DNA of 64,000 bases from Mollicutes bacterium Phil14 (GTDB lineage: Bacteria; Bacillota_I; Bacilli_A; ML615J-28; CAG-698). Positions 51,978 to 56,245 of this stretch are shown in pieces. Under the pieces are notes generated by a model, which was not told the origin of the DNA, did not search any database, and saw only the letters and a list, made by a program, of their open reading frames with translations. Both the position numbers and the translations under genes were made by a program. The stretch covers positions 1 through 64,000 of the forward strand of contig MSHB01000007.1 in NCBI GenBank assembly GCA_001940985.1, given 5' to 3'. Numbering within the stretch: the stretch's first letter is position 1; each line of letters starts with the position of its first letter.

Positions 51978-52000
51978 AAAAAAATTGTCCTGGATGGGAC
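51978..52000 (-). terminator. First terminator after tRNA-Arg(TCT)
   Basis: Short stem GTCC/GGAC with a 6-base loop, followed by AATTTTTTT on the minus strand, 13 bases from the tRNA end. The stem repeats part of the tRNA acceptor sequence. Confidence 0.55.
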
Positions 52001-52012
52001 TAAAATAAAAAA

Positions 52013-52089
<77 letters not shown>

Positions 52090-52107
52090 ATATCTAAATG
52101 CTCATAT

Positions 52108-52136
52108 ATTATATCAGTTTTTTTTCACTAAATCAA
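52108..52136 (-). promoter_or_regulatory. Promoter of tRNA-Arg(TCT)
   Basis: Minus-strand -35 TTGATT (52131-52136), 17-base spacer, -10 TATAAT (52108-52113), about 19 bases before the tRNA. Confidence 0.75.
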
Positions 52137-52156
52137 GTTTATTTTGAAAAATTATT

Positions 52157-52183
52157 AAAAAAAGTAATTCCAAATGGAATCAC
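52157..52183 (-). terminator. Terminator after the double GNAT gene
   Basis: Stem GTGATTCC/GGAATTAC with a 4-base loop (one wobble), then seven T on the minus strand. Confidence 0.8.
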
Positions 52184-52192
52184 TCTTTGTTG

Positions 52193-53161
52193 TTATAATT
52201 CTTTTTCTAATGAGCAGAAGCTTTGAGCTATCTTAAATCCTGCTCCCATATAAATATATCTAGCATAATTAGTTAATCCAGTGTAAAAAGTCATGAACTT
52301 GGCGCCATTATTTTTTGAGTAAAGAGCAAGACTAGAGAATAAAGCTTTTCCTAAACCTTTGCCTCTAAGGGAATTTGAAATTGCTATTCCATCAAAGTGA
52401 CCACGACCACTTTCTTCATTCCACATTGCTCCAGTCCAACCCATTACTTTTCCATTTTGACTTACTACTAAAAATGGATATGGTTTTTCTAATGCTAAAT
52501 TTTCTTTTATTACTTTTTCAAAATCATATATATTGATGTCTTTATAGAAGTCCTCAATACCAAAATGTTTTTCTTTATCATATAGTTCTATTTTTATTCC
52601 TTCTTTTTCACATTTAGCTAAAATTTCTTTTATGCTAGGTGATATCTCATAATCTGATAGTGCTAAATGAAAAGCATCGCAATATCCAAATGTTTTATAT
52701 CCGTGATGTAATAAAAATAGATATATTTCACTATTAATACTAACCCCTGGTGCACAAGGGTGATCGTGTTTATCTGTTTTAGGAATATACCATTCATAGC
52801 ATGATGGTAAAAAGCCTGTAGCAATTAGTTTCTTTTTATTTAAATCTTTAGCTAATTTTTCTGTTAATCTTAAAAGTTCTCGTCCGATTCCTTGATTTCG
52901 ATATTTATCTTTAACAACCAAAGCATTTAAATAAGCATTATCTTTATTTCTAGTACTGTCAATTAATATGCTAAATCCCACTAAAACTTCATTATCTTTT
53001 GCTAGTATTACATTATCAAATTTAAAATCAGGATTTGTTAGCATCTTTTTTTCATATTGTAATAAAGTATACGGTTTATAAAATCCATCTATATTAACAA
53101 CTTCATTCCATAATTCATTCATGCTTTTCAAATCTTCTTTTTTTGCACTTATATATATCAT
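52193..53161 (-). CDS. Protein with two GNAT acetyltransferase domains
   Basis: A 322-residue protein. The first GNAT domain (1-150) has the acetyl-CoA motif VKDKYRNQGIGRELL; the second (about 190-322) has ISNSLRGKGLGKALF and ends AGFKIAQSFCSLEKEL. GGAGG site. Tandem GNAT proteins acetylate small amines or antibiotics; the acceptor is unknown. It diverges from the transporter operon starting at 53552, so the 390-base gap holds both control regions. Confidence 0.88.
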   Translation of the reverse strand: MIYISAKKEDLKSMNELWNEVVNIDGFYKPYTLLQYEKKMLTNPDFKFDNVILAKDNEVLVGFSILIDSTRNKDNAYLNALVVKDKYRNQGIGRELLRLTEKLAKDLNKKKLIATGFLPSCYEWYIPKTDKHDHPCAPGVSINSEIYLFLLHHGYKTFGYCDAFHLALSDYEISPSIKEILAKCEKEGIKIELYDKEKHFGIEDFYKDINIYDFEKVIKENLALEKPYPFLVVSQNGKVMGWTGAMWNEESGRGHFDGIAISNSLRGKGLGKALFSSLALYSKNNGAKFMTFYTGLTNYARYIYMGAGFKIAQSFCSLEKEL

Positions 53162-53254
53162 TATTTTCCTCCATACTACTATATTATATCATTTTATATA
53201 AAAAAACAAACATAAAAAGTAAGCGTTTTATATTTTAATTTTATTGACATTTTC

Positions 53255-53283
53255 TTGAAAAAGGTATAAAATTATAGTATAAT
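53255..53283 (+). promoter_or_regulatory. Promoter of the aromatic-type ABC importer operon
   Basis: -35 TTGAAA (53255-53260), 17-base spacer, -10 TATAAT (53278-53283). A second candidate pair, TTGACA at 53244 with TATAAA at 53265, is less well spaced. The RNA would start near 53290, just before the leader-peptide ribosome site. Confidence 0.75.
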
Positions 53284-53302
53284 TTTTTAGAGAGGAAAAA
53301 CA

Positions 53303-53359
53303 ATGAAAAAGATATTTAATTCTTATTTTTATTATTACTTTTATTATCCAAGGACATAG
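53303..53359 (+). CDS. Leader peptide MKKIFNSYFYYYFYYPRT
   Basis: An 18-codon ORF with AGAGAGG eight bases before its ATG. Codons 8-15 read Tyr-Phe-Tyr-Tyr-Tyr-Phe-Tyr-Tyr: six tyrosines and two phenylalanines in eight codons. Its overall look resembles the E. coli pheA leader ([15 protein letters not shown]). The last codons and the stop lie inside the 5' arm of a terminator-like hairpin. A ribosome stalled at the Tyr run would cover that arm and allow readthrough into the ABC transporter. AT-rich DNA can produce Tyr/Phe runs by chance, so the ribosome site and hairpin placement are the main evidence. Confidence 0.6.
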   Translation: MKKIFNSYFYYYFYYPRT

Positions 53360-53389
53360 TGTTTTAACAAACATCTTCTTGGACTTTTT
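53347..53389 (+). terminator. Attenuator hairpin overlapping the leader-peptide stop
   Basis: Outer stem TCCAAG (53347-53352) with CTTGGA (53378-53383), inner stem TGTTT (53360-53364) with AAACA (53369-53373), then C and five T. The outer stem is short and there is an interior loop, so strength is moderate. Confidence 0.55.
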
Positions 53390-53442
53390 GTCTTGCTTTA
53401 CAAAAAGTTTAAAGTAATCTCAATAAAGAATTATTGTTATTT

Positions 53443-53532
53443 GTTATTACACTATTACATTATAATATTGTAATAACTAACAAAATAAAAAAATAAATCA
53501 TGTGGTTATTACTAAATAGTAGTAACCTTTTT
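53443..53532 (+). promoter_or_regulatory. Alternating hairpins ending in a terminator before the first transporter gene
   Basis: Four segments: 1 GTTATTAC (53443-53450), 2 GTAATAAC (53470-53477), 3 GTTATTAC (53505-53512), 4 GTAGTAAC (53519-53526). Segments 1:2 pair perfectly, 2:3 pair perfectly, and 3:4 pair with one wobble. The 3:4 stem extends to GGTTATTACT/AGTAGTAACC and is followed by TTTTT at 53528-53532, ten or so bases before the AAGGAGG site of the gene. This is the order of protector, antiterminator and terminator stems in classical attenuators. What selects between them is not evident. Confidence 0.6.
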
Positions 53533-53551
53533 AATTTTTAAGGAGGACATT

Positions 53552-54547
53552 ATGAAAACATTAAAAAAATCTTTTATTTCATTATTTATTATTTTAACTA
53601 TTCTTTTACTTTGTAGCTGTAAAAATTCTAACAAAATTAGAGTTGGTATTTTGCAATATACAACAATTAATGCCTTAGACAATGCCAAAGAAGGAATTAT
53701 TGAAGGTTTAAAAGAAAATGGTTTTATTGAAGGAGAGAATATTGTAATTTCTGTTTTAAATCCCGAAGCCGATCCTAATAGCCTAGATATTATGGCAAAG
53801 GACTTAGTCAGAAAATCTGATATAGTTATTGGAATTGCTACCCCAGCCGCTGTAGCCTTACAAACTGCTGCTAAAAATGAAGGCAAGAATATCCCTATTG
53901 TCTTTACAGCTGTTACTGATCCAGTTGATGCAAAACTTGTTAAAGATATAAACGCACCAGAAGCAAATATTACAGGAACTAGTGATATGAATCCTGTCAA
54001 TGAGCAAATTGAAATCATTAAAAGAATAATTCCAAATATTAAAAAAATGGGAATTTTATATACTGTAAATGAAACAAACTCAAAAGTTCAGGCTGATATA
54101 GCAGCTGCTAAAGCAAAAGAATTAGGAATAGATGTTAGTTTTGGTCAAGTGACTGGTATAAATGATATCACTCAAATAACTAGAAATATTATTACAAATG
54201 GTGCTGAAGCTCTTTATATACCTACTGATAATAACTTGGCTAAGAATATGCCAGCTTTAGTTGAAGTTGCTAACTCTTTGAATGTCATAACAATTGTTGG
54301 TGAAGCTGGTATGTGTAGTAATGGAGGTTTAATTACTTTAGGTATTAATTATAAAGAATTAGGTAAGATGACTGGAGACATGGCCGCAAGCATCTTGAAA
54401 GGTTCTAAAATTAGCAGTTTGGCTGTTAAAGCTCTATCTATTGAACAATGTGATTTTACTATCAACATGACTACAGCAAAAGCTTTAAAAATTGAAATCC
54501 CAAAAGATATCCTAGATGTATCTAAACTAATAGAAACAGGTGAATGA
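53552..54547 (+). CDS. TrpX-type ABC transporter substrate-binding lipoprotein
   Basis: A 331-residue lipoprotein: signal SFISLFIILTILLLCSC with lipobox, AAGGAGG site. The mature protein matches the TrpX/YtrF-like binding-protein family: VGILQYTTINALDNAKEGII, IVIGIATPAAVALQTAA, IPIVFTAVTDPVDAKLV, GTSDMNPVNEQIEII, ALYIPTDNNLA and GGLITLGINYKELGKMTG. In other Firmicutes this family takes up tryptophan or other aromatic compounds under T-box control. Here the leader encodes a Tyr/Phe-rich peptide instead, which suggests tyrosine or phenylalanine as the sensed, and perhaps transported, amino acid. Confidence 0.88.
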   Translation: MKTLKKSFISLFIILTILLLCSCKNSNKIRVGILQYTTINALDNAKEGIIEGLKENGFIEGENIVISVLNPEADPNSLDIMAKDLVRKSDIVIGIATPAAVALQTAAKNEGKNIPIVFTAVTDPVDAKLVKDINAPEANITGTSDMNPVNEQIEIIKRIIPNIKKMGILYTVNETNSKVQADIAAAKAKELGIDVSFGQVTGINDITQITRNIITNGAEALYIPTDNNLAKNMPALVEVANSLNVITIVGEAGMCSNGGLITLGINYKELGKMTGDMAASILKGSKISSLAVKALSIEQCDFTINMTTAKALKIEIPKDILDVSKLIETGE

Positions 54548-54548
54548 T

Positions 54549-55475
54549 ATGTTAGAAACGATAAAATATATAATAATTGATGCTTTGTGCATGGGGCTTC
54601 CATATGCCCTACTTGCACTTGGTATTTTTGTAAGTTACAGAATCTTAGACTTTTCAGATTTGACTTGCGAAGGAAGTTTCACATTAGGAGGAGCAGTATG
54701 TGTAAGTGGCATTATTCTAGGAATAAATCCTTGGCTTACATCTATCTTAGGAGGTGTTAGCGGATTTGCTTGCGGAATCTTTACTGGTCTTTTACATACA
54801 AAATTAAAAATTCCTGCTCTACTTTCAGGAATAATTACTATGACAGCTTTATTTTCAATTAATCTTTTAGTTATGGGAATAACAAAAAACAGTTCTTCTT
54901 TTGCACAAGCATTTGATACTGTTGCATACGTTGGTGATAATAAAACAATCTTTAGTTTATCAATTTTTAAAAATAGAAACATGAATGCCATTTTTATTAG
55001 TGCAGTTATTGTTTTTATAATGGTAGCTTTTATATATTGGTTTTTTGGAACAGAATTTGGAATGTCAATTAGAGCCACAGGAATGAACCAACAAATGGCT
55101 CGTTCTCAAGGAATCAATACAACAATAATGATAATAATTGGGTTGGGTGTTGGTAACTTCCTAATAGGTGTTAGTGGAGCATTAACAGCTCAATACACAA
55201 TGAGTGCTAAAAGCGATATGGGGACTGGAGCATTAGTTATTGGTTTAGCATCTATTATTTTAGGTGAATCAATTTTTGGAAAGCGAAGTTTTAAAAATTG
55301 GATTATATCAGTTTTACTAGGCTCAATAATTTATTACTTAATTATCGGAATTGCTATTAATTTAGGTTTACCTACTTTCTTATTGAAACTTTTATATGCC
55401 GTTTTAATTATAATTATTTTAGTTATTCCATTTATTAAAAAACTTCTAAAAAAACGTGAGGTGAAAGCATGTTAA
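54549..55475 (+). CDS. TrpY-type ABC transporter permease
   Basis: A 308-residue permease of the branched-chain-amino-acid-like family with eight to nine transmembrane helices (GLPYALLALGIFVSYRILDF, FTLGGAVCVSGIILGI, FIWFGTEFGMSIRATG-type loop seen as FGTEFGMSIRATGMNQQMA, which contacts the ATPase). Start at 54549 behind CAGGTG; the binding-protein stop is 1 base away. Second gene of the operon. Confidence 0.9.
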   Translation: MLETIKYIIIDALCMGLPYALLALGIFVSYRILDFSDLTCEGSFTLGGAVCVSGIILGINPWLTSILGGVSGFACGIFTGLLHTKLKIPALLSGIITMTALFSINLLVMGITKNSSSFAQAFDTVAYVGDNKTIFSLSIFKNRNMNAIFISAVIVFIMVAFIYWFFGTEFGMSIRATGMNQQMARSQGINTTIMIIIGLGVGNFLIGVSGALTAQYTMSAKSDMGTGALVIGLASIILGESIFGKRSFKNWIISVLLGSIIYYLIIGIAINLGLPTFLLKLLYAVLIIIILVIPFIKKLLKKREVKAC

Positions 55476-56245
55476 AATTAGAAAACATTACTAAAACTTT
55501 TGATTTAACAGAAAATAAAGCTGATATTAGAGTAGCTTTAGATAACATTTCACTTGAAATAGATGATGGCGAATTTGTAACTATTATTGGTGGAAATGGT
55601 AGTGGAAAGTCAACATTAATGAATATCATATCAGGAGCATTTTCTGCTGATAGTGGAAAAGTAATCATTGATAATGAAAATGTAAATAACTTAAAAGAAC
55701 ACAAAAGAGCAAAATTCTTAGGACGAGTATTTCAAGATCCAAATATGGGAACTGCTGGAAACATGTCAATACTTGAAAATATGGAATTAGCCTATAAAAG
55801 AAATACTCAAAAAACTTTAAAGTGGGGTTTTAAAAAGGAACATTATAATTGTTTCAAAGAATCATTATCTAAACTTAATTTAGGACTTGAAACGCGACTT
55901 GAGCAAAAAGTAAAATTGTTAAGTGGTGGTCAAAGGCAAGCTTTAACTTTGCTAATGGCAACTATTAAAAAACCAAAAATATTATTGCTTGATGAACACA
56001 CTGCTGCCCTTGATCCTAAAACTGCTAGAAAAGTTCTAACACTAACTAACGATATAATCACCACTGAAAAAATCACCACAATCATGATAACTCACAATAT
56101 GCGTGATGCTATAAAATATGGTACTAGATTAATTATGATGTATGATGGAAAAATAATTTTTGATGTTAAAGGTGAAGAAAAATCAAAATTAACTGGCGAA
56201 GAACTTTTAGACAAATTTGATGAACAAGAAAAAGATATTATATAA
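55469..56245 (+). CDS. TrpZ-type ABC transporter ATPase
   Basis: A 258-residue ATP-binding subunit. Walker A GGNGSGKST, Q-loop RVFQDPNMGTAGNMS, signature LSGGQRQALTL, Walker B ILLLDEHTAALD and switch His in MITHNMRDA, all intact. GAGGTG site; the start overlaps the permease stop by 7 bases. Completes a three-gene importer (binding protein, permease, ATPase). Confidence 0.95.
   Translation: MLKLENITKTFDLTENKADIRVALDNISLEIDDGEFVTIIGGNGSGKSTLMNIISGAFSADSGKVIIDNENVNNLKEHKRAKFLGRVFQDPNMGTAGNMSILENMELAYKRNTQKTLKWGFKKEHYNCFKESLSKLNLGLETRLEQKVKLLSGGQRQALTLLMATIKKPKILLLDEHTAALDPKTARKVLTLTNDIITTEKITTIMITHNMRDAIKYGTRLIMMYDGKIIFDVKGEEKSKLTGEELLDKFDEQEKDII

Follow-up and report, generated by a model that had tools for sequence, protein, structure and literature searches.

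The importer operon and its leader region

The window, that is, the whole stretch of 64,000 nucleotides of Mollicutes bacterium Phil14 DNA that was analyzed, carries on its forward strand a gene for a lipoprotein substrate-binding protein of the PF04392/TrpX-like kind (53552-54547; Pfam PF04392, 4.9e-65). It is followed on the same strand by genes for a permease (PF02653 by Pfam; 54540-55475) and an ATP-binding protein (PF00005 by Pfam; 55469-56245), which overlap the respective preceding gene by 8 and 7 bases. Judged from these domains, the operon (53552-56245) would encode a PF04392/TrpX-type ABC importer with three components, with tyrosine uptake as its probable function. The NCBIfam TrpX model (NF041285) matched with 1.1e-85, but its 287.5 bits fall short of the model's cut-off of 390 bits.

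A probable sigma-70-type promoter, TTGACA-17-TAAAAT, lies at 53244-53272 on the same strand; it agrees with the consensus in 11 of 12 positions and is the joint best match in 52000-56000, with a second, overlapping match ending at 53283, a consensus scan alone being no proof of function. Downstream of it are the ribosome binding site AGAGGA (53291-53296), a purine-rich site found at the same place in most homologous leader ORFs, and an ORF of 18 codons plus stop (53303-53359, forward strand) for the leader peptide MKKIFNSYFYYYFYYPRT, in which codons 8-15 comprise six Tyr and two Phe codons. The operon thus follows a short ORF that is rich in codons for the amino acid to which the operon is predicted to respond.

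In the minimum free energy (MFE) structure, the sensor codons ATTACTTT (53334-53341) pair with AAAGTAAT (53411-53418) in a helix, P0 (53334-53418), which encloses the first hairpin; the sensor codons are thus themselves base-paired. This first-tier hairpin, H1 (CCAAGGA/TTCTTGG; 53348-53382), is followed by CTTTTT at 53384-53389, a T-tract that is taken up by a further hairpin of the MFE structure, H1b (ACTTTTTGT/ACAAAAAGT; 53383-53408). Hairpins resembling H1b were recognized by eye in two other leaders (L023 and L026). The T-tract of H1 may serve as a pause site or as a weak first terminator.

Mutually exclusive second-tier hairpins before the binding-protein gene

The second tier consists of four arms on the forward strand. 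Arm 1 (TTTGTTATTAC; 53440-53450), whose 8-base core GTTATTAC (53443-53450) opens the region 53443-53532 treated in the preliminary description, can pair either with a segment at the end of the leader ORF, segment A, or with arm 2 (GTAATAACTA; 53470-53479). Arm 2 can pair instead with arm 3 (GGTTATTAC; 53504-53512), as an antiterminator, and arm 3 with arm 4 (GTAGTAACC; 53519-53527), which together with the five T at 53528-53532 (arm 4 and T-tract, 53519-53532) forms a predicted intrinsic terminator 5' of the structural gene. Within 53443-53532, the pairings 1:2, 2:3 and 3:4 are mutually exclusive. The MFE of a 109-nt stretch is -24.3 kcal/mol, whereas shuffled sequences average -12.6 (sd 2.8; z = -4.2), none of 200 shuffles being as good. 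The 3:4 hairpin was the sole terminator-like site found by a scan of both strands of 52000-56000; because 1.3 such sites are expected by chance, the scan by itself proves nothing, and the decisive support is comparative.

For the comparison, homologues of the binding protein were sought at four taxonomic levels around the window (genus, family, order and class) and also in a second family, and the leaders were read directly. Helices were assessed in 24 leaders, namely the window and 23 further leaders from other genomes, by a permutation test of own against swapped partners (20,000 permutations) and by a block alignment of the arms. In the block alignment, A and A2 were positioned by best complementarity, which biases it toward pairing; the swap tests are free of this bias.

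Own partners paired better than swapped ones in 1:2 (-11.7 versus -8.0; 0/20,000) and in 3:4 (-11.2 versus -7.7; 0/20,000), and both helices showed double changes. Support was weaker for 2:3 (-8.6 versus -7.6; 16/20,000), which has few double changes of its own because the TTATTAC core shared by arms 1 and 3 is nearly invariant within the order. In the first tier, P0 also exceeded its swapped partners (-8.2 versus -6.4; 0/20,000, or 1/20,000 without near-duplicates), and the CCAAG:CTTGG stem of H1 is paired in 100% of the leaders, CTAAG:CTTAG and ACCAG:CTGGT being compensated forms of it, and shows double changes in the 24-leader alignment as well. The preliminary description had proposed the three exclusive hairpins, with 2:3 as antiterminator and 3:4 with five T as terminator, and these proposals are borne out by folding, swap tests and covariation, 2:3 being the weaker element. 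It had further named a lack of compensatory changes in homologous leaders as grounds for rejection; such changes are present in H1, 1:2 and 3:4, few in 2:3, and most abundant in the pairing of A with arm 1. Its suggestion that the second tier is the main switch is probably right. The shared TTATTAC also suggested that the Tyr codons might pair with arm 2 or with arm 4; this was rejected, as neither pairing rose above swapped partners (7,503 and 6,867 of 20,000, respectively, after removal of near-duplicates).

A segment at the end of the leader ORF pairs with arm 1

Segment A, also labelled 0 (CATAGTGTTTTAACAAAC; 53355-53372, forward strand), overlaps the leader stop codon and is located between the two strands of H1, in the loop of this first-tier hairpin. 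It pairs with 53440-53456, that is, with arm 1 and its 3' neighbor A', which extends to 53456, and in the window this duplex reaches -14.5 kcal/mol (RNAduplex). Across the 24 leaders, A paired with its own partner at a mean of -14.75 kcal/mol, compared with -8.6 (sd 0.63) for permuted partners (0/20,000, also after near-duplicates were dropped). In the block alignment, 12 of the 15 pairs of A:1 showed double changes, several of them with four or five pair types, which makes it the best-covarying helix of all; the covariation score of A:1 plus 2:3 was 0.407, versus 0.165 when shuffled. The segments differ accordingly between genomes, with GATGTCATG pairing with CATGACATC in L020, GATATCATAA with TTATGATATC in L029, GATTATGT with ACATAATC in L028, and AAAATCGTGT with ACACGATTTT in L008. 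As controls, A was also paired with arm 3 and with the remainder of the 1:2 loop; neither combination was significant in the swap test on the same 24 leaders.

Segment A, as the link between the leader peptide and arm 1, was missed in the preliminary description, which had seen here the geometry of a textbook attenuator. In an attenuator of that type, arm 2 becomes free to pair with arm 3 because the stalled leader ribosome sits on segment 1, and both the reality of the 1:2, 2:3 and 3:4 pairings and the Tyr leader peptide upstream would suit it. However, 80 nt separate the end of the stop codon (53359) from the first base of arm 1 (53440), and a ribosome, whose footprint extends approximately 15 nt past the P site, never gets there, so that geometry rules out that it masks arm 1 directly. 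Moreover, the textbook arrangement leaves the covariation of A with arm 1 unexplained, and we regard it as very improbable.

Another reading starts from H1 itself: with its CTTTTT, it could be the real Tyr-controlled terminator, melted by a ribosome stalled on the Tyr codons, the second tier being a backup with a logic of its own. The retention of CCAAG...CTTGG followed by CTTTT in most leaders, including those of another family, and the full pairing of H1 are in line with such tandem terminators. On the other hand, H1 has a short stem and a large loop, its T-tract is occupied by H1b in the window, and the covariation of arm 1 with a segment that lies inside H1 would have no explanation; this arrangement is therefore an unlikely one in our view.

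Homologous leaders in related bacteria

A Tyr/Phe-rich leader ORF was found upstream of the orthologue in 16 of the 18 genomes of the same family with a close orthologue and in all five other such genomes of the same order (21/23 across the order). Most of these ORFs end in FPR or YPR and are followed by CCAAG...CTTGG-CTTTT, a variable linker and the arms, usually in the form GTTATTAC / GTAATAAC / GTTATTAC / GTAATAAC; in L019 and L008, the ORF extends past A. By these sequence comparisons, the chain of four pairings is kept in dozens of related uncultured bacteria. No recognizable Tyr run was present in the leader of the binding-protein gene in two leaders of one genus (L016 and L017, of genomes G005 and G006). 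These two belong to close orthologues and have second-tier-like hairpins and a terminator, and their genomes have a prephenate dehydrogenase.

In the second family (that of genome G059), 21 leaders have Tyr/Phe ORFs followed by arms of different sequence, such as GGTGTT / AGCACC / TTTGGTGC / CCAAAC, and A again pairs better with its own partner (-14.7 versus -10.0, sd 0.65; 0/20,000 in these 21 leaders). The same five-segment topology thus occurs in two families of the class whose arm sequences are unrelated, which points to a recurring design. When the 43 genomes of the order were searched for the second-tier arms in other contexts, the matches besides the known loci were chance-like ones and a locus with Cys codons, described below.

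A tyrosine-type pocket in the binding protein

The closest solved relatives of the binding protein are 3lft (Trp), 6hni, which is CD0873 (Tyr), and 3lkv (Phe). In CD0873 of C. difficile, Glu-263 bonds the hydroxyl of tyrosine and a Tyr replaces the Gln that binds Trp, and these two residues are reported to set tyrosine specificity (PMC6816091). Residue E251 of the window protein aligns with Glu-263, and Y267 with the Tyr site, so that its pocket is of the Tyr type and not the A/Q of the Trp binder. From this alignment, we infer that tyrosine is the substrate.

The same E and Y are found in nearly all proteins encoded behind Tyr leaders, the exceptions being L069, L185, L186 and L198. In Enterococcus alcedinis (L010), a Trp leader (WQNW) goes with an A/Q pocket, as in the solved Trp binder; the Trp-codon leader ORF, MNETTYNTQLHNSWQNWRR, lies approximately 400 nt upstream of the homologous transporter gene. 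Similarly, the protein behind the leader SYFFSYFR of L200 carries A and Y, the pair described for the Phe binder. Homologues controlled by a T-box mostly have E and Y too, and therefore the pocket does not depend on leader type; E and Y are also found with L195, whose leader has Phe codons only. Overall, the correspondence between leader codons and pocket is good, but not perfect.

Moreover, no prephenate dehydrogenase was detected in the window's genome, the assembly of which is 93% complete, and this is consistent with a need for tyrosine import. Within the window's family, a prephenate dehydrogenase scored over the cut-off in 1 of 16 genomes with the leader, as opposed to 5 of the 12 genomes that lack the leader (p about 0.04, one-sided Fisher test).

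Ribosome position and the choice of hairpin

In a masking test, the RNA upstream of the ribosome's leading edge (+15 footprint) was removed before folding, and pairing fractions were calculated for the stage before arm 4 is made. With the ribosome stalled at the last Tyr codon of the window, the fractions of 2:3 and 1:2 were 0.77 and 0.12, and with a stall one Tyr codon earlier, they were 0.93 and 0.00. At the stop codon, the preference was reversed (2:3, 0.00; 1:2, 0.74), and nearly the same values were obtained with no ribosome (0.00 and 0.73). Among the 24 leaders, 2:3 exceeded 1:2 in 16-18 when the ribosome was stalled and in 2 when it was at the stop codon; no flip occurred in 6-8 of them (e.g., L079, L082, L081 and L028). 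With no ribosome, 2:3 was favored in 7 of the 24, so that an off state by default is not general. In the model, then, ribosome position changes which hairpin forms. Once arm 4 is included, the equilibrium fold favors 3:4 in most leaders, even with a stalled ribosome, and therefore the choice must be kinetic, made during transcription, like that of other attenuators.

The preliminary description had left the choice of fold to either the leader-peptide ribosome or an unknown ligand. The masking test favors the first, acting through A, and the second found no support. More broadly, a ligand, a tRNA acting through a T-box or an RNA-binding protein might pick the fold, the small ORF being incidental; T-boxes do occur with transporter homologues from other parts of the class, and the close relatives L016 and L017 keep second-tier-like hairpins without a recognizable Tyr leader. 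Against this, no Rfam family matched the leader strand even at E 5, neither the T-box (RF00230, or the conserved T-box sequence) nor another element, whereas other members of the class do match; the earlier statement that no T-box or known aptamer is present holds. The Tyr codons are also kept while their flanks and the codons chosen vary, and the Tyr/Phe/Trp content of the leader tracks the pocket of the transporter in the few cases that offer a contrast. We consider a control of this kind extremely improbable.

Altogether, the leader is very likely a tyrosine-responsive, ribosome-mediated transcription attenuator with the relay A-1-2-3-4, which controls an ABC importer of tyrosine or aromatic amino acids. 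When tyrosine is scarce, the ribosome would stall on the Tyr codons, melt P0 and cover the 5' strand of H1; A, just downstream of the stalled ribosome, would stay free and capture arm 1, leaving arm 2 free for arm 3, and with the antiterminator formed, the transporter genes would be transcribed. When tyrosine is plentiful, the ribosome would reach the stop codon, which is inside A, and hide A, so that arm 1 would pair with arm 2, 3:4 would form, and transcription would end near 53532. With no ribosome, P0 and H1 would keep A out of reach in the window, making off the default there. Because masking flips 2:3 and 1:2, tyrosine shortage should lead to read-through and plenty to termination, which would suit an importer.

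Relation to known systems and wider meaning

The trp, his and pheA attenuators of E. coli have an ORF rich in the regulated amino acid and mutually exclusive hairpins 1:2, 2:3 and 3:4, of which 3:4 is an intrinsic terminator. The present leader is like these systems of Proteobacteria in its short, amino-acid-rich ORF, its exclusive hairpins and its terminator 3:4. It is unlike them in that 80 nt lie between the leader ORF and arm 1, in that an extra segment at the ORF end is predicted to relay ribosome position by long-range pairing, and in that the ribosome would favor 2:3 by exposing A and not by covering arm 1, its sensor codons being paired in P0. Ribosome-mediated attenuation is a known kind of control, of which the added relay segment, as read from these sequences, is a variant.

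Within Bacillota, His leader peptides of hisS and hisZ in Bacilli have been described as an attenuator that replaces a T-box (Naville and Gautheret 2010, PMC2965389); they concern another amino acid and other genes, and no relay segment is mentioned in the part of that account available to us. Also in a Gram-positive bacterium, the bmrB leader of Bacillus subtilis bmrCD places ribosome-mediated transcription attenuation before an ABC transporter, which, according to the portion of the article available, is a multidrug exporter induced by antibiotic pressure and not an amino acid importer (PMC4191407). In Acholeplasma, a low-GC Gram-positive relative, uORFC-13-1 upstream of aroF, in which Phe codon(s) precede a terminator, is a candidate uORF attenuator; it likewise concerns aromatic amino acid metabolism, but belongs to a biosynthetic gene and has one substructure plus the terminator and a Phe run instead of a Tyr run (PMC8632094). 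The homologous transporter trpXYZ of Streptococcus suis is also subject to transcription attenuation by aromatic amino acid supply, but through a 461-nt Trp T-box that reads uncharged tRNA, where the window uses a leader peptide (PMC9382623). Neither Tyr leaders in Bacillota nor the relay segment were found described in the open-access literature; as most subscription journals lie outside it, this absence is weak evidence of novelty.

A match to the Rfam family RF02863, "Enterococcus sRNA 2410", that passes the gathering score was found in L105 (G049:C5:64080-64690) at 338-562. Its start falls within the final codons of the aromatic leader ORF MKNINITSSNRSYFFSYFR, and, as in the window, it lies between a Tyr/Phe ORF (SYFFSYFR) and a homologous PF04392 binding-protein gene, although its hairpin sequences are other than those of the window. 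The family's annotation is that of an E. faecium sRNA (PMC5593968); from its position, this RNA is probably an attenuator leader.

Leaders with other sensor codons were also encountered. In L127 (G023:C7:26900-28800), a leader at about 560-635 has the H1/A/1/2/3/4 architecture with three Cys codons (NFYCAYCICFPRKLVS), and is followed by a 33-aa ORF and, after that, by cysK (374 bits to NCBIfam TIGR01139, versus a cut-off of 351). This locus is a single copy in which both strands of P0 are changed, and its sequence suggests that the sensor amino acid may have been exchanged; cysK may have a promoter of its own. Two leaders (L123 and L124, of genomes G368 and G391) have ORFs that mix Trp and Tyr codons (QAQQWSYYYYFS and QAQQWSCYYYFS) before the homologous transporter. 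In Clostridia, the Tyr/Phe leader ORFs NASFYFYYFYFFNEVALVDGQK and NYYYFYFYYFYNEVAFVDGQKK (L013 and L014) stand in a simpler arrangement with a G+C-rich terminator before transporter homologues.

It is about an even bet whether relay attenuators of this kind, with a segment at the ORF end that carries ribosome position across some 80 nt and with swappable sensor codons (Tyr/Phe, Cys), are a class-wide feature of Bacilli. If they are, they would be modular amino acid sensors that work without T-boxes, for aromatic importers with Tyr/Phe codons and, at the cysK of genome G023, with Cys codons. Bacillota are expected to govern their amino acid genes mainly by T-boxes, and the tyrosine importer described here seems to be controlled by a leader peptide instead. 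The rules of the design, sensor codons plus a capture segment, are simple, which makes it testable and possibly reusable. Moreover, an RNA filed as an Enterococcus sRNA may be a leader attenuator, and leader codons can help to annotate the substrates of transporters.
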